NCBI GenBank assembly: GCA_021325435.1
Contig: JAJPHE010000115.1
Location: 1 to 64,000 of the forward strand
Reading direction: 5' to 3'
Source: Actinomycetota bacterium
GTDB lineage: Bacteria; Actinomycetota; Acidimicrobiia; Acidimicrobiales; JAJPHE01
Length of the DNA stretch: 64,000 nucleotides
In this document: piece by piece, positions 22,866 to 29,780 of the stretch
Position numbering within the stretch: the stretch's first letter is position 1
How the letters are laid out: every line of letters starts with the position of its first letter
The notes under the pieces: model-generated
Database searches by the model: none
Seen by the model: the letters and a program-made list of their open reading frames with translations, nothing else
Told to the model about the DNA's origin: nothing
Position numbers and translations under genes: made by a program

Positions 22866-24005
22866 CTAGGGGACGTAGGCGTTCAGGAAGGCGAGCAGGG
22901 CGTAGCTGCCGATCGCCCCGCCGAGCAGGGTGAGCGCGACCGTCTCCACCCGGGGCCGGGCGGTCACCGTCGCGGCGCCCAGGATGAACGGGAAGGCGCC
23001 GAGGGCGTAGCGCTCGAGCGAGTCGAGATTGGTGGCCGAGACCGCGGCCACCAGTGAGGCGGCGGCAAAAACGGCGTAGGAGACCGGCCACGACCTGACC
23101 ACCACCACCAGCAGCAGGACGAGGACAGCCAGCCAGGGGACGTGGAGGGCGGTGCCGACGTGGCCGTGGGCCAGGCCGCGCAGGGAACCGGAAATGGTGG
23201 TTGCGGGATCGGCGAAGCGGCCGTGGAGGTTCCGGTGCTGCTGGATGCGGAACGGCAGCCAGAAGTCGCCGAACCTCCACGCCACCCAGCCCAGGTAGGT
23301 GGCGCAGCCGGCGGCAGGAGCGACCACGGCGGCGGCCCGGGAGCCGAGCTGGCGGGGCCGGGGGCGGGCCCCGCCCCGGAGGCCGCCGACCGCTTCGACG
23401 GCGGCGGGCAGGCCGAGCAGGACCCCGAGGGGCCGGGTGAGGCCGGCCAGGTAGCCGGCGGCCGCCGCCCGCCACCACTTTCCCGACCGCAGGCCGGAGA
23501 AGGCGACGAGAGTGAGGACGAGCAGGACGGCCTCGGAGTAGCCCATGACGAGCACGAAGGCGGACGGGGCGAGGGACAGCAGCCAGGCAGCCCGCCGGCC
23601 GAGAGACGGGTCGCCGGTCTCGGCCAGGGCCAGGCGGTAGAGGAGGGCGCCGGCGGCGAGGGCGGCCACGTTGACCACGACCAGCAGGGCAGCCCCCGTC
23701 GGCATCGCCGTCACCAGATGCACCAGCCGGGCGCACCAGGGGACCAGCGGGAAGAAGCGCAGCGCCTCGCGGGGCAGCGGGCCGTAGCCGTGGTCGGCGA
23801 TGCTGCGGTACCAGCCGGCGTCCCAGCCGAGGAGCCCCTCGTGGGCCCGCTGGGCCACCCCCGCCGCCGACGGGTGGACGTGGGAGACCAGGTAGCGGGC
23901 CAGAGCCAGAGCGGAGACGACGAGGGCTCGCGCGACCAGCCAGGGCGGGGAGGCGACCAGGACCGCGTCGCGCAGGGGGGCGGAGCGGGCCGGTCGGGGC
24001 GTCAC
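22866..24005 (-). CDS. PIG-V-like mannosyltransferase, membrane
   Basis: A 379-residue polytopic protein resembling the PIG-V/GT76 group of polyprenyl-phosphate-mannose-dependent enzymes. The signature first-loop motif WDAGWYRSIADHGY is at about residues 61-74, with the acidic residue expected to be catalytic. Later LRFFPLVPWCARLV and the paired positions before each helix fit the GT-C fold. Acceptor unknown. GTG 24005 overlaps the stop of the upstream GT39-type gene as GTGA. An 88-bp gap separates it from the mutase-like gene downstream; part of that gap looks like a promoter. Confidence 0.8.
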   Translation of the reverse strand: MTPRPARSAPLRDAVLVASPPWLVARALVVSALALARYLVSHVHPSAAGVAQRAHEGLLGWDAGWYRSIADHGYGPLPREALRFFPLVPWCARLVHLVTAMPTGAALLVVVNVAALAAGALLYRLALAETGDPSLGRRAAWLLSLAPSAFVLVMGYSEAVLLVLTLVAFSGLRSGKWWRAAAAGYLAGLTRPLGVLLGLPAAVEAVGGLRGGARPRPRQLGSRAAAVVAPAAGCATYLGWVAWRFGDFWLPFRIQQHRNLHGRFADPATTISGSLRGLAHGHVGTALHVPWLAVLVLLLVVVVRSWPVSYAVFAAASLVAAVSATNLDSLERYALGAFPFILGAATVTARPRVETVALTLLGGAIGSYALLAFLNAYVP

Positions 24006-25600
24006 GCCGGCCAGTAGCGGACCAGCCCGGCGTGCTCGAAGTAGTGGGCCGGCTCGGCCAAGAGAACGGCGGCGGAGTGCGGGCGGAGCACGGCCAAGGA
24101 GGACTCGAGGGCGTCGCACTTGCCTTCGAAGGTGCGGTAGTCGTTGGCCCACACCAACCAGACCTGATGGCCGGCGGCCAGCGCCTGCACCCGCCGGGCG
24201 AAGGCGGCCGGGTCGGCGGCCTTGTTGCGGGCCGCGTAGTCGACCCAGTCGACGCGGGCGGGGCCGGCCCCGGTGGGGAAGACGACCTGCCGGTAGGCGC
24301 CGGCGGGCAGGAGGCGGCTGGTGCTGGGGCCGAGCTGGTCGGGGCAGTACACGACCACGTCGCCCGGTGCCGCCGACTGGCGGATGGCGGCGGCGATCTT
24401 GCCCACCTCGGTGCGGTTGGTGGTCACGTTGGTGACCGAGCCGGCCAGGCCGAACACGACGGCGGCGGCGAGGACGCCCCGGCGGACGCGGACGTCGGCG
24501 AAGGACAGCATGCCGAGGGCGACCAGCAGCACGAAGGGGATGAACACGACCGCGGCGTAGCGGGCGGTGAAGGCGGACCGCAGGGCCAGGCCGGCGACGA
24601 TGGCGAGGGCCAGGGCGGCGGCGCTGACGAAGGCGACGGCCCGGGCCCGGGGACGGGTCCGCAGGTCGAGCTCGATGCGGTGACCGTCGACGGCGGCGCC
24701 GAACAGACCCACGCCGGCCAGCCCGAAGAACACCAGCCCGAGGGCCCGCCCCTGGTTGGTGCCGCCCCCGGCGAAGTCACTGACGGCGTTGACCATGGCA
24801 CTGAAGTTGGCCGGCTCCGACCACGGAGTACCGGTGTGGCGCAGCTGAAAGGCGAGGATGCCGACCCAGGGGACCAGCAACAGGAAGCCGCCGACCACGG
24901 CCAGCACCACCCGCCGGGCGGCCCCGGCGTGGTGACGCCCCCGGGCCGCCACCCACGCCAGCACCAGCAGCACCGCCCCGACCAGGTACAGCGTCCAGTA
25001 GTGGCAGAGGAGCAGGAGCCCGGTGGTGAGGGCCACCCCGGCCAGCCGGCCGACGGTCGGGCGCTCGAGCGCCGAGGTCACCGCCAGGTAGCCGACCGCG
25101 GTCAGCAACACGATCAGCATGTACATCCGGTTCTCCGTCGAGTACCGGACGGCGAAGGGCGAACTGGCCACCAGCAGCAGGGTCGCCCAGGCCACCGGTC
25201 GTCCCCCGATGCGGCGCCCGGCCAGCCAACCGACCGGCAGGGTGGCGACCCCGAGGACGCCGGACAGGGACCGGACGGCGAGGTCCCCTTGGCCGAAGGC
25301 CCGCATCCAGAAGTGGAGCAGGTAGTAGTAGAGGGGCGGGGAGCCGTCGTGGCGCAGGGCGCCGGCGATCTGGCCGATCGGCAGGCGGGCGATGTTGACC
25401 GTCAGGGCCTCGTCGAGCCACAGGTCCGACCGGGTCCAGAAGCGCAAGACCACCCCGGCGGCAATGACCGCCACGGCCGCCCCGGCCAGCCACCAGGGCA
25501 CGGACCGGGCCGGAGGCCCCGCATCGTCGGCCAACGACGACGGCAGGGTCGGTCGCTCGACCGGGGCGGGGCCGTCCCCGCGCAGGCCGGCAACCTTCAT
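24002..25600 (-). CDS. GT39/ArnT-like membrane glycosyltransferase
   Basis: A 532-residue GT-C enzyme, first gene of the minus-strand glycan operon. The outer-loop RSDLWLDEALTVNIARLP holds the DE pair (residues 63-64) typical of the PMT/ArnT superfamily; HDGSPPLYYYLLHFWMRAFG and SLSGVLGVATLPVGWLAGRR follow, as in that family. About ten membrane helices precede a soluble C-terminal region (about residues 400-532) facing outward. Donor is probably a polyprenyl-phosphate sugar (family knowledge). ATG 25600 has a TACCAT box 8 nt upstream, so transcription of the operon may be leaderless. Confidence 0.88.
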   Translation of the reverse strand: MKVAGLRGDGPAPVERPTLPSSLADDAGPPARSVPWWLAGAAVAVIAAGVVLRFWTRSDLWLDEALTVNIARLPIGQIAGALRHDGSPPLYYYLLHFWMRAFGQGDLAVRSLSGVLGVATLPVGWLAGRRIGGRPVAWATLLLVASSPFAVRYSTENRMYMLIVLLTAVGYLAVTSALERPTVGRLAGVALTTGLLLLCHYWTLYLVGAVLLVLAWVAARGRHHAGAARRVVLAVVGGFLLLVPWVGILAFQLRHTGTPWSEPANFSAMVNAVSDFAGGGTNQGRALGLVFFGLAGVGLFGAAVDGHRIELDLRTRPRARAVAFVSAAALALAIVAGLALRSAFTARYAAVVFIPFVLLVALGMLSFADVRVRRGVLAAAVVFGLAGSVTNVTTNRTEVGKIAAAIRQSAAPGDVVVYCPDQLGPSTSRLLPAGAYRQVVFPTGAGPARVDWVDYAARNKAADPAAFARRVQALAAGHQVWLVWANDYRTFEGKCDALESSLAVLRPHSAAVLLAEPAHYFEHAGLVRYWPA

Positions 25601-25614: not shown

Positions 25615-25744
25615 CGCGGGACCTGGTGGGCTCCCCGGCATCCCTGAGGACCTCGGCGGCTGACTAGTCCGGCCGAAGCAGACGGGCGGTTGACACCTCT
25701 AGCCCCACGAAATGGTCCTTGCTGGCGCGACCCGCGGGCGACAG

Positions 25745-25834
25745 ACTCCGGATACCGGCCGGTGGGAAGGATCTGCCAGACCGGAGGAACGGGACTAGCC
25801 AGAAGGGCCGGCAAACGGTCCTGGGTTCCAGGAG
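25745..25834 (+). promoter_or_regulatory. Structured leader with hairpin hiding a ribosome-binding site
   Basis: Leader of the BldC-like gene. TCCTGG (25819-25824), loop GTT, CCAGGA (25828-25833) form a perfect 6-bp hairpin whose 3' arm contains most of the AGGAG ribosome-binding site (25830-25834). Further up, ACTCCGGATACCGGCC (25745-25760) matches 14 of 16 positions of the cobalamin-riboswitch B12 box as I remember it, but the other conserved riboswitch blocks are not recognisable. A TTGACA at 25690 lacks a good -10 partner. Regulation of translation by RNA folding is possible, not shown. Confidence 0.3.
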
Positions 25835-25840
25835 ACTGAG

Positions 25841-26080
25841 ATAAGGGCGAGCAGGAGCGAGCTTCTCGAGGAGCTGTTCGGGGAGAACGGTGTCCCCGAG
25901 ACCGTCTCCGAGCGCCTGCTGCGCACCAGCGAGGTGGCCACCCTGTTCCAGGTCTCCGAGCGAACCGTTTCCGAGTGGGGACGGAGGGGGCGGATCCCCT
26001 CGGTCCGGACCCCGAGCGGTCACCGGCGGTATCCCGCCGGGCCAATCAAGGAGCTGTTAGAGAAGGCGAGCGCGCTGTGA
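25841..26080 (+). CDS. BldC-like small MerR-type DNA-binding protein
   Basis: A 79-residue protein whose second half, LLRTSEVATLFQVSERTV through GHRRYPAG, closely matches BldC and related single-domain MerR/excisionase winged helices: helix-turn-helix, then the wing SVRTPSGHRRYP. No ATG, GTG or TTG exists between the in-frame stop at 25796 and the start of the helix-turn-helix. The only codon at proper distance (6 nt) from a ribosome-binding site (AGGAG, 25830) is ATA 25841, so either AUA is used, the base is wrong, or the gene is decayed. It contains a TTA leucine codon (26057). It lies directly upstream of the peptide transporter and may regulate it (inference). Confidence 0.65.
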   Translation: MRASRSELLEELFGENGVPETVSERLLRTSEVATLFQVSERTVSEWGRRGRIPSVRTPSGHRRYPAGPIKELLEKASAL

Positions 26081-26182: not shown

Positions 26183-27856
26183 GTGGCTGATCGGTACAAC
26201 CGGCGTGACTTCATGTCTCGGGGCGCCAAGTTCGCGGCCGGCGCCGCCATCCTCGGCTCGGGCGGCGGCCTCCTCGAGGCCTGCGGCAGCTCGTCGCCCA
26301 GCAAGGGCAGTACGGCGACGACGGCCGGCAGCCCCGGCGCCTCGAACCTCACCCCCAAGCGGGGTGGCTCGCTGACCATCGGAACTGAAGCCGAGGACAA
26401 CGGCTTCAACCCCGGCGTGGCCAGCTGGGACGTGTCGGGCCTCATGTACGGGACCACCTTCTTCGATCCCCTCGTGTACGTCGACAGCAACGGCAAATGG
26501 AAGCCGTTCCTCGCCCAATCGATCACACCCAATGCCGACTACACCCAGTGGACCATCAAGGTCCGGCCCAACGTCGTCTTCCATGACGGGACTCCGTGCG
26601 ACGCCAGCGCCATCGTAGGGAGCCTCAAGGCGGCCAAGGCCTCCGTTCAGCTGGGATTCTTCCTCCAGAACATGTCCAGCGTCGGCAACCCCGACTCTTC
26701 AACCGTCGTGATCACCTGCGGCGAGCCCTGGTACGCGTTCCCCTATTACCTGCAGAACGGCATCGGCTCCATCCTGGCCCCAGCCATGGTCGAGGCCAAG
26801 GACGGCGGCAACACCCACCCCATCGGCACGGGCCCCTTCACGTTCCATGACTGGGTGCCCAACGATCACGCCACCGGCACGCGCAACACCCGCTACTGGA
26901 TGTCGAACCTCCCCTACCTGGACCAGGTCACGTTCAAGCCGATTCCGGATCACCAGGCTCGAGAGAACGCCCTGCGGGCCGGCAACATCGACATCATGCA
27001 CACCGACGACACCCAGACGGCCGTCGACTTCATGCACAACTCGTCGTTCCAGTACATCAACGACGTCAACAACGCCGCCACCGAGCACGAGCAGGACATG
27101 GTCATGCTCAACTGCGCCAAGCCGCCCCTGGACGACGTCCGTCTTCGCCAGGCACTGGCCTATGCGATCGATCGCCAGCGAATCATCGACACCCTCTACA
27201 ACGGGATCAGCCCCAACTCGAACGGCCCCTTCTCGAAGGGCTCCCCGTACTACACGGACACCGGGTACCCCTCCTTCAACCTGACCAAGGCCAAGCAGCT
27301 CGTCCAGCAGGTAGCCAAGGACAAGGGCGGCCCCATCAGCTTCGAGCTGTCGATCATCAACGACGCCAAGGACCAGGCGGTGACCACCCTCGTGCAGAGC
27401 ATGTTCAAAGCCGCCGGGGTCAACACCACTCTCGTGGTCGTCGAGCAGAGCCAGTACATCGTCCAGGCCCTGTTCGGAAACTACGCAGCCCGTGGATGGC
27501 GGCAGTTCGCGGCCTCGGATCCGGACGAGAACTACGCCTACTGGAGCACCAAGACCCTCGCGCCCATCGGCGGGCTCTCCCTGAACATCGCCCGGAACAA
27601 CGATCCCCAGATCCAGGCCGACCTGGAGAAGGGGCGCACCAGCCTGGACACCGCCACCCGGACCGCCGCCTACCAGGACATCGCCAAGCGGTTCGGGCAG
27701 GACTGCCCGTTCCTGTGGATCAATCAGGCGTACTGGAGCGTTGTCGCCAAGCCGACGGTCATGAACTTCAACAAGGGCACTCTGCCTGACGGGTCACGCA
27801 CGCTGGGCATGACCGGAGGTTTCATCGACCCGCGCTTCATCTGGGTCAACGCTTAG
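26183..27856 (+). CDS. Peptide/oligopeptide ABC substrate-binding lipoprotein
   Basis: A 557-residue family-5 extracellular binding protein (DppA/OppA type). The N-terminus has a twin-arginine signal (NRRDFMSRGAKF, Arg7-Arg8) and lipobox LLEAC with Cys34, so it is probably exported folded by Tat and lipid-anchored. The mature part shows GTEAEDNGFNP, NVVFHDGTPCDASAI, GTGPFTFHDW and DDVRLRQALAYAIDRQRI, the hallmark stretches of this family. GTG 26183 follows AGGGGAACGAAG. It is first in the transporter operon. The bases look less GC-rich than the flanking glycan genes. Confidence 0.93.
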   Translation: MADRYNRRDFMSRGAKFAAGAAILGSGGGLLEACGSSSPSKGSTATTAGSPGASNLTPKRGGSLTIGTEAEDNGFNPGVASWDVSGLMYGTTFFDPLVYVDSNGKWKPFLAQSITPNADYTQWTIKVRPNVVFHDGTPCDASAIVGSLKAAKASVQLGFFLQNMSSVGNPDSSTVVITCGEPWYAFPYYLQNGIGSILAPAMVEAKDGGNTHPIGTGPFTFHDWVPNDHATGTRNTRYWMSNLPYLDQVTFKPIPDHQARENALRAGNIDIMHTDDTQTAVDFMHNSSFQYINDVNNAATEHEQDMVMLNCAKPPLDDVRLRQALAYAIDRQRIIDTLYNGISPNSNGPFSKGSPYYTDTGYPSFNLTKAKQLVQQVAKDKGGPISFELSIINDAKDQAVTTLVQSMFKAAGVNTTLVVVEQSQYIVQALFGNYAARGWRQFAASDPDENYAYWSTKTLAPIGGLSLNIARNNDPQIQADLEKGRTSLDTATRTAAYQDIAKRFGQDCPFLWINQAYWSVVAKPTVMNFNKGTLPDGSRTLGMTGGFIDPRFIWVNA

Positions 27857-27868
27857 GCGGGGGTGGCG

Positions 27869-28825
27869 ATGGCGCGACTCGCAGGACGGAAGTTCCTACT
27901 CCTCATCCCCGTCCTGCTGATCGTCAGCATCGCCACCTTCCTCCTGCTGAACCTGCTGCCCGGCGATCCGGCCATCAACATCCTCGGTCTCGGCGCCACC
28001 CCGGCCGCCGTCCACCAGCTCAGGCAACAGCTGCATCTGGACGACCCCATCTATCTCCGCTACACCCACTGGCTGTGGCAGACCCTCCACGGCCAGTTGG
28101 GCGAGTCCTACCTGAACAAGGAACCGGTCTCCACCGCGGTCCGCCAGCACTTCCCCGTGACCCTGGAGCTCATGGTCATCTCCCAGGTGATCGCCATCAT
28201 CGTCTCGGTGCCGCTGGGGATCTGGTCGGCGTACCGGCCGAACAGCTGGGCGGACCGGGCCGCCACTGGCTTCTCCTTCGCCATGCTGGCGGCACCGCCG
28301 TACATGCTCGGCGTGCTGATGGTCTTCGTCTTCGCCGTGCATTGGCACGTGTTCCCGGCGACGGGGTACGTCGGGTTGACGCAGAATCCATTCGAGAACA
28401 TCCGCGACCTCTTCCTGCCGTCGTTGACCTTGGCCCTGGGCTCCCTCGCCGTTTACGTGCGCTTGCTCCGAGCCGAGATGATCGCCACTCTGCAGGAGGA
28501 CTACATCACCATGGCTCGGGCCAAGGGCATGCCGACGGGCTTTATCCTGCTACGCCATGCGCTTCGACCTTCGACGTTCTCACTCGTAACCGTCGCCGGC
28601 CTCAACGTGGGCACGTTGATCGGGGGCGCCTTCATCATCGAGTACATCTTCGCCATCCCTGGTATCGGTTTATTGACCGTCAACTCGATTTACTCGCGGG
28701 ACTACCTCGTCGTACAGGCCTGCGTTCTCATCGTGGCCGTTGGGTTCGTACTCGTGAACTTCTTTATGGACCTGATGTACCCACTGCTCGATCCGAGGAC
28801 GAGACATGCACGATCCAGCGCCTGA
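27869..28825 (+). CDS. dppB: Peptide ABC transporter permease DppB-type
   Basis: About 318 residues with six membrane helices. The first is preceded by ARLAGRKFLLLIPVLLIVSIATFLLL and LLPGDPA, typical of DppB/OppB. The EAA loop that docks the ATPases is DYITMARAKGMPTGFILLRHALRP, and FIIEYIFAIPGIGLL follows. ATG 27869 is preferred; GTG 27863 is also in frame. It contains TTA at 28670, one of only two TTA codons I noticed in the window. The 3' part is visibly richer in A and T than the neighbours. The end overlaps dppC by 20 bp. Confidence 0.94.
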   Translation: MARLAGRKFLLLIPVLLIVSIATFLLLNLLPGDPAINILGLGATPAAVHQLRQQLHLDDPIYLRYTHWLWQTLHGQLGESYLNKEPVSTAVRQHFPVTLELMVISQVIAIIVSVPLGIWSAYRPNSWADRAATGFSFAMLAAPPYMLGVLMVFVFAVHWHVFPATGYVGLTQNPFENIRDLFLPSLTLALGSLAVYVRLLRAEMIATLQEDYITMARAKGMPTGFILLRHALRPSTFSLVTVAGLNVGTLIGGAFIIEYIFAIPGIGLLTVNSIYSRDYLVVQACVLIVAVGFVLVNFFMDLMYPLLDPRTRHARSSA

Positions 28826-29780
28826 ACGCCCGGCGGGCATCGCCGGGCCGAGTGACGCGCTGGCCCCCTCGGCCACGATGGTCGGCGGCGGTTCGCCCAG
28901 CGTCGAGCTCGAACCCGAGCTGCTGGGGTCGGAGCTGGCGCCCGACGCCGAGTTCGAGACTGCCCGGCGCGGTCTCGGTTTCGGCTTCTGGCTGTCGGTG
29001 GGGTGGCTGACGGTAATCGTCCTGCTGGCCGTCCTGGCCGACATCCTGCCCCTCGAAGACCCGAATGCGACCTTTGTCGGAGCTCCGGGACTCGGGCCCG
29101 GTCTCCACCACCTCCTCGGCACCGACGAGCTCGGCCGCGACCTGCTGTCGCGGGTCATCTTCGGATCGCGGGTGTCCCTGATCGTGGGCTTTACGTCGAT
29201 CGCCGTCGGGATGCTCATCGGGGGCAGCATCGGGCTGGCCGCCGGCTACTTCCGGGGCAAGATCGACGCCATCGTCACCGGGCTGGCCAACATTCTCCTC
29301 GCCTTTCCGGCCCTCGTTCTCGCCCTGGCCATCGTGACGTTCATGGGCCCGAGCCTGTTCCACGTGACCCTGGCCATCAGCATCCTCGCCATCGGCCCTC
29401 TCACCCTGCTGGTGAGGGGGAGCACGATCGTGTTCTCCCAGCGCGAGTTCGTGGTCGCCGCCCGGCTCCTCGGCGCCAAGAGCTGGCGGGTCGTCTACCG
29501 CGAGATCCTCGCCAACGTTCTCCCGGGGGCCATGTCCCTCGGTCTGATCGCCGTGGCCGTGGCGATCGTCGCCGAAGGAGCCCTCTCCTTCCTGGGCGTG
29601 TCGGTGCGGACCCCGACTGCCTCGTGGGGCAACATGATCGCCGAGGGACGCATCGTGATGGTCCAGCACCCGCTGATCACCCTCTGGCCCGCCGCCCTGA
29701 TGTTTCTCACGGTCCTCGCCCTGAACTTCGCCGGGGACCGGCTGCGGGCCTACTTCGACGTCCGGGAGGGGGCGCTGTGA
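28806..29780 (+). CDS. dppC: Peptide ABC transporter permease DppC-type
   Basis: A 324-residue second permease. A longer than usual N-terminal extension (about 55 residues, Pro/Ala/Glu-rich) precedes the first helix. Then come HHLLGTDELGRDLLSRVIFGSRVSL, the DppC/OppC signature, and the EAA loop EFVVAARLLGAKSWRVVYREILANVLP. The last part, SFLGVSVRTPTASWGNMIAEGR, is also characteristic. It starts inside dppB, 20 bp before its stop, and its own stop overlaps the dppD GTG as GTGA, so the permeases and ATPases are translationally coupled. Confidence 0.94.
   Translation: MHDPAPERPAGIAGPSDALAPSATMVGGGSPSVELEPELLGSELAPDAEFETARRGLGFGFWLSVGWLTVIVLLAVLADILPLEDPNATFVGAPGLGPGLHHLLGTDELGRDLLSRVIFGSRVSLIVGFTSIAVGMLIGGSIGLAAGYFRGKIDAIVTGLANILLAFPALVLALAIVTFMGPSLFHVTLAISILAIGPLTLLVRGSTIVFSQREFVVAARLLGAKSWRVVYREILANVLPGAMSLGLIAVAVAIVAEGALSFLGVSVRTPTASWGNMIAEGRIVMVQHPLITLWPAALMFLTVLALNFAGDRLRAYFDVREGAL

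Follow-up and report, generated by a model that had tools for sequence, protein, structure and literature searches.

A BldC-like transcription regulator encoded in a draft genome of the Acidimicrobiales has no usable canonical start codon, and we put at roughly three in four the probability that it is a functional protein translated from AUA at position 25841, on a Shine-Dalgarno (SD) sequence, at a low level limited by IF3. Positions refer throughout to the window, the whole 64,000-nucleotide stretch of contig JAJPHE010000115.1 that we analyzed, which comes from a draft assembly of 4.0 Mb in 160 contigs with 96% completeness (genome G000). Our sample of the family comprises three genomes: G000, G001, and G002.

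A BldC-like gene with a probable ATA start codon

The gene occupies positions 25841 to 26080 on the forward strand, with 79 codons counted from ATA and a TGA stop at 26078 to 26080. Its frame is open from 25799, immediately after an in-frame TAG (25796 to 25798), and AGGAG (25830 to 25834, forward strand) lies six bases 5′ of the ATA codon (25841 to 25843, forward strand), a well-spaced arrangement; on both the open frame and the placement of ATA, an earlier interpretation of the window from its letters (the sequence-only reading) was correct. Its statement that the gene lacks ATG, GTG, and TTG holds for the 14 codons from the in-frame stop to ATA, none of which is canonical, but does not extend to the gene body, where GTG (25934 to 25936, forward strand), within the helix-turn-helix (HTH), is the first canonical codon in frame. 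Read by eye, an in-frame ATG at 25712 is separated from the gene by the TAG, so that a start there would need stop readthrough, and G001 has no ATG just 5′ of its own stop in the regulator frame. The genome is GC rich, and ATA is rare, accounting for 6 of 15,746 codons in the long open reading frames of the window and, when the training set is enlarged, for 74 of 91,184.

The encoded protein matches the Pfam MerR family at 37.3 bits (cutoff, 28.2) as a MerR/HTH_17 winged helix, and its nearest solved structure by sequence is BldC (6ama; E = 1.3e-10), bearing out the earlier description of an intact BldC-type winged helix. Against the NCBIfam model NF033787 (HTH_BldC), the window protein scores 60.8 bits and its G001 counterpart 53.7 bits, neither reaching the curated cutoff of 77, while a paralogue elsewhere in the window genome (G000:C76) scores 99.6 bits and has an ATG start in place. 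Judged by these profile scores, the regulator is BldC-like but is not BldC, and the true BldC is the predicted product of another locus in the genome. An AlphaFold model (pLDDT, 86.6; pTM, 0.77) has the BldC-type winged-helix fold without an effector domain, plus an extra helix at residues 5 to 13 that covers a conserved LLxELFG segment. The best structural match in the PDB is DNA-bound BldC (6ama_H; E = 1.5e-4; TM score, 0.85 by target). Like BldC (6ama/6amk), to which it is 45% identical in the structural match, the regulator is a lone MerR-like winged helix; unlike BldC, it falls under the curated cutoff and carries the N-terminal helix with LLxELFG. The Streptomyces BldC is described as both repressing and activating sets of genes (PMC6428758).

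The ATA codon is kept in a second genus

Among 59 genomes searched, the closest orthologue is in G001, which belongs to the same family but to a different genus; the matched frame is 72% identical. At the first aligned residue this orthologue has ATA, with AGGAG seven bases before it and no ATG, GTG, or TTG in the 39 in-frame codons upstream, while the G002 orthologue has TTG at the position aligned with ATA. The conservation of ATA is thus one comparison, between two ATA genomes among the three of the family, on contigs from drafts of 160 and about 430 contigs. The sequence-only reading had proposed comparing start codons among orthologues and had taken frameshifts in relatives as counterevidence; we found ATA in the nearest copy, TTG in the second nearest, and ATG, GTG, or TTG only further out, with no frameshift in either of the two nearest copies. 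Since G002 manages with TTG, AUA would not be essential to the family.

Codon-position identities between G000 and G001 change sharply at ATA: they are 0.83, 0.83, and 0.40 for the first, second, and third positions of codons 2 to 31 and 0.21, 0.14, and 0.36, a background level, for the 14 codons 5′ of ATA. Because identity of the type expected under selection sets in at ATA and upstream identity is background, the protein should begin at ATA or within a codon or so of it. Nei-Gojobori estimates for the same pair are a dN of 0.27 and a dS of 1.02 for the N-terminal part and a dN of 0.14 and a dS of 0.75 for the remainder of the protein, and by these comparisons codons 2 to 31 have the pattern of a protein under selection. 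The three family copies are also orthologous by position: both G001 and G002 share synteny with the window for a divergent PMT_2 glycosyltransferase-type gene (24002 to 25600, reverse strand) and for two more genes. Proteins of the neighboring genes are just 53 to 73% identical between G000 and G001, so the ATA codon has persisted through a long divergence. With ATA as rare as it is in the window, its conservation at this one position in another genus exceeds what chance would give.

Across the order, canonical starts are the rule. An order-wide search (24 of 397 genomes matched) together with a named collection (21 loci) gave 45 loci, which came to 33 distinct orthologues once one unplaceable locus (L078, in G271) and 11 duplicates were removed. 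An in-frame ATG, GTG, or TTG lies upstream of the HTH in 31 of these 33, the only two without one being G000 and G001. The 21 named records are labeled Acidimicrobiia, Acidimicrobiales, Acidimicrobiaceae, Actinomycetes, Actinobacteria/Actinomycetota, and, once, Acidobacteria. One record, from Acidiferrimicrobium, which we take to belong to the Acidimicrobiales, is the same locus as that of a same-order genome (G233) and so points to that order.

infC and the initiator tRNA

The infC gene has ATA as its start, a few bases 3′ of AGGAG, in all three family genomes, from which it follows that the lineage uses ATA as a start. This fact, which lay outside what the sequence-only reading could see, carries the mechanism proposed below. 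We detected infC in 55 of the 59 genomes searched and read 30 fetched loci (L091, L092, L093, L114 to L140). In 28 of them, the 15 codons preceding the conserved block (or fewer, where a stop intervenes) include no canonical one, with ATA (22 loci) or ATC (6 loci) as the start-like codon; the two ambiguous loci are L115 (ATG nearby) and L136 (GTG nearby). Taken at the level of these genes, ATA starts are a normal part of the predicted translation of this lineage, with a known regulatory meaning.

Initiator tRNAs are marked by mismatched 1-72 ends and by three G-C pairs in the anticodon stem. Scanning 30 of the 47 tRNA matches in G000, which were fetched for this purpose, we found one initiator-type tRNA gene; it is normal, with anticodon CAU, a mismatched 1-72 pair, and three G-C pairs in the anticodon stem. 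Given this anticodon, decoding of AUA would involve a third-base C-A mismatch. In the literature, infC starts with ATT in Escherichia coli and with ATC in Streptomyces, IF3 is described as rejecting non-canonical starts, and infC is treated as a known autoregulated case (PMC5472188); in reconstituted translation, weak third-base pairs are reported to be excluded by IF3 (PMC10158994).

A predicted IF3-limited regulator

These elements suggest a mechanism in which the initiator tRNA (CAU) would pair with AUA except for the third-base mismatch, and IF3 would destabilize the mismatched complex, so that most initiation complexes would be rejected and the level of the regulator would be low. That level would rise when free IF3 is short, and, with infC carrying the same AUA start, the regulator and infC would both answer to the same factor. 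We infer that IF3 probably serves to hold the regulator at a deliberately low abundance. Of the two outcomes that the sequence-only reading had offered, strongly throttled translation or a sequence error, the first gains support from ATA in a genome of another genus and from the ATA start of infC.

This kind of control is already known from sigR and ccpN. Streptomyces sigR, which starts with GTC, is reported to be repressed by IF3 (PMC5472188). In Staphylococcus aureus, ccpN, a gene for an HTH repressor, is reported to have a conserved AUA start with reporters at about 10 to 30% of AUG; non-canonical sites there are given as about 10% of the AUG reporter in poor medium, with the ccpN AUA reaching up to 30% in rich medium, and infC is also AUA started (PMC13009471). 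Like our gene, sigR specifies a transcription regulator of actinobacteria and has a conserved non-canonical start behind an SD; it differs in its GTC codon, in an extensive ribosome-binding site (AGGAGGTG), in having experimental proof, and in encoding a sigma factor instead of an HTH regulator. The ccpN gene of Staphylococcus and Bacillus shares with ours an HTH product, a conserved AUA, and an infC with AUA in the same genome, but its product is of another protein family and its hosts of another phylum, and its start was demonstrated by Ribo-Ret and reporters. The SD of our regulator is AGGAG alone, compared with the extended SDs reported at sigR and ccpN. As in infC, where AUU, AUC, or AUA serves in autoregulation, an AUN start stands behind an SD and would be discriminated by IF3, but the product here is a transcription regulator and not IF3, and no autogenous loop is implied.

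It is quite possible, if short of even odds, that AUA acts as a weak start that simply holds the regulator at a steady low amount, with no regulation by the abundance of IF3. The direct evidence concerns the codon and not its regulation. One AUU site in S. aureus is reported to have no medium-dependent effect (PMC13009471), and the authors of the sigR study state that they could not demonstrate a rise in GTC-initiated translation on oxidative stress (PMC5472188). Against a constant level stands the infC of the lineage, which has AUA and is a known autoregulated case, so that IF3 sensitivity of an AUA start is to be expected.

The hairpin over the Shine-Dalgarno sequence

The sequence-only reading had also placed AGGAG in the 3′ arm of a perfect hairpin that would hide the ribosome-binding site. 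A perfect 6-bp inverted repeat is indeed present at 25819 to 25833 on the forward strand (TCCTGG at 25819 to 25824, loop GTT, CCAGGA at 25828 to 25833), although only AGGA of the SD falls within the arm. We consider it unlikely that this hairpin works as a regulatory switch between a sequestered and a free ribosome-binding site. In favor of a switch, the minimum-energy fold contains a competing predicted hairpin (25804 to 25822, forward strand) that shares the 5′ arm of the inverted repeat, making the two mutually exclusive, and their total folds are close in energy (−22.5 versus −21.9 kcal/mol, forcing the 25819 to 25833 hairpin costing 0.6 kcal/mol); taken alone, the hairpin cores have −9.8 kcal/mol (25804 to 25822) and −7.3 kcal/mol (25819 to 25833). 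The inverted repeat, however, is absent from G001, and the leaders of the three genomes fold no better than shuffled sequence (z = −0.16 in G000 and −0.55 to 0.60 across G000, G001, and G002), leaving no conserved stable structure; a comparable 6-bp hairpin over the SD arose in 179 of 20,000 leader shuffles. The claim of a hidden ribosome-binding site is accordingly not supported, as the hairpin is neither conserved nor the predicted minimum-energy structure. The SD is predicted to be partly or largely paired in all three genomes, with mean unpaired probabilities over three fold windows of 0.40 to 0.59 in G000, 0.07 to 0.20 in G001, and 0.01 to 0.20 in G002; because these include the TTG genome, SD pairing does not distinguish the ATA genes.

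Other starts and sequence error

Initiation at GTG 25934 would yield a truncated HTH of 48 residues. It is the first canonical codon in frame, and G001 also has GTG there, but no SD precedes it, some orthologues have GTC at this position, as for a plain valine codon, and the shortened product would lose the N-terminal helix with part of the first HTH helix, including the LLxELFG segment, which is under purifying selection and is helical in the model. With conservation extending upstream of the GTG, we rejected this start as very improbable. Slightly less probable again is entry from an upstream open frame, by frameshifting or by termination and reinitiation at AUAA: in G000 a frame of 41 codons runs from a TTG at −122 to the TAA within ATAA, and in G001 ATGs at −124 and −16 open a different frame across the start, but frames and starts differ between the two genomes, none is conserved, and upstream identity is at background. 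Least probable of all is that ATG became ATA through an artifact of sequencing or assembly or through a recent inactivating mutation. A single base would suffice, and the contigs come from draft genomes, but the same ATA stands in G001, which is independent and only 0.40 identical at third positions over the adjoining 30 codons, dN lies below dS, and the HTH is intact; as far as sequence can decide, we therefore rejected the sequence error that had been the second outcome proposed at the outset.

Neighboring genes and likely target

Returning to a regulator translated from AUA 25841, its likeliest target is the transporter that adjoins it in both ATA genomes. In the window, the next gene downstream encodes a family 5 extracellular solute-binding protein of a peptide-type ABC transporter (26183 to 27856, forward strand), followed by two permease-type genes (27863 to 28825 and 28806 to 29780, forward strand), which we presume from sequence and context to be Dpp/Opp permeases. 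In G001, the regulator is directly followed by homologues of these two permease-type genes, which in the window lie beyond the solute-binding gene, and the permease start is six bases 3′ of the regulator stop. These adjoining peptide-type transporter genes are probably under the control of the regulator. Around the TTG copy of G002, the 19 kb fetched contained no transporter match.

The TTG orthologue of G002 (L008) has an altered wing motif (GPRGIRSYP in place of TPSGHRRYP); in that genome the absence of AUA, the changed wing residues, and, over the 19 kb, the absence of the transporter neighbor occur together. A separate observation concerns the sequence AATGGTCC, which lies upstream of 5 of 59 BldC-type genes (window 25661 to 25718; L022, L025, L038, and L005) and is perhaps a shared promoter. 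In L022, L025, and L038, TGACTAGT stands 16 to 17 bases 5′ of it, and a search of the three family genomes for exact copies of the spaced promoter-like pattern TGACTAGT...AATGGTCC gave none.

Other candidate non-canonical starts

A screen of 22 sources (the window and L093 to L113) found 20 of 318 frames with no canonical start close to where the coding signal begins at its 5′ end, ranking an mreB gene first and the window gene third. In each of the three family genomes, one of the two mreB paralogues (L104:10544-11539, reverse strand) lacks an in-frame canonical start ahead of its conserved DLGT block, and CTG occupies the place of the usual first residue, preceded by AGGAGG or GGAGG. We then counted 28 mreB loci from 27 matching genomes of 31 in the order (L182, L183, and L189 to L213 among their labels): 14 have CTG and no canonical start in frame, 2 combine CTG with a canonical codon located further 5′, and 12 have ATG, GTG, or TTG. 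In all three family genomes, this mreB appears to start with CTG behind a strong SD.

More tentatively, and with some doubt on our part, start codons might wire a small set of genes in this order to IF3, namely, infC (AUA or AUC), one mreB (CUG, in roughly half of the species surveyed), and the BldC-like regulator (AUA, in one family), by which the cell would read its IF3:ribosome ratio into the control of cell shape and peptide uptake. Few bacterial genes with conserved non-canonical starts are described as characterized, and start prediction as blind to such starts (PMC5472188). The results listed by our literature searches included no account of an AUA-initiated BldC-type gene, of the start codons of infC in this order, or of an mreB beginning with CUG; one listed paper, PMC10783764, mentions Acidimicrobiia and IF3. 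Our example is a further transcription regulator, from a lineage with no such report among those results and with AUA or AUC as the infC start. It also suggests a simple computational screen for IF3-controlled genes, combining a conserved coding frame, an SD, the lack of a canonical codon, and the same codon as infC.

An AUA/AUU screen covered 840,673 bases of G000 (the window and 60 further stretches, about a fifth of the genome) and retained frames with a coding score of at least 15 in which an SD precedes ATA or ATT and neither the upstream codons nor the 12 that follow include a canonical one; it is blind to infC, whose frame has canonical codons far upstream. Two of 967 coding frames passed, the window gene and L163:104-451 (reverse strand). 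The latter has ATA after GAGG and no canonical start, but we did not count it, as it has no Pfam match and no match in G001 or G002; it has a weak match, with an internal stop, elsewhere in G000. Two beta-lactamase-fold genes (L110:1299-2132, reverse strand, and L107:4558-5301, forward strand) lack a canonical start near the beginning of their coding signal and could be using CTG or another non-canonical codon as the start.
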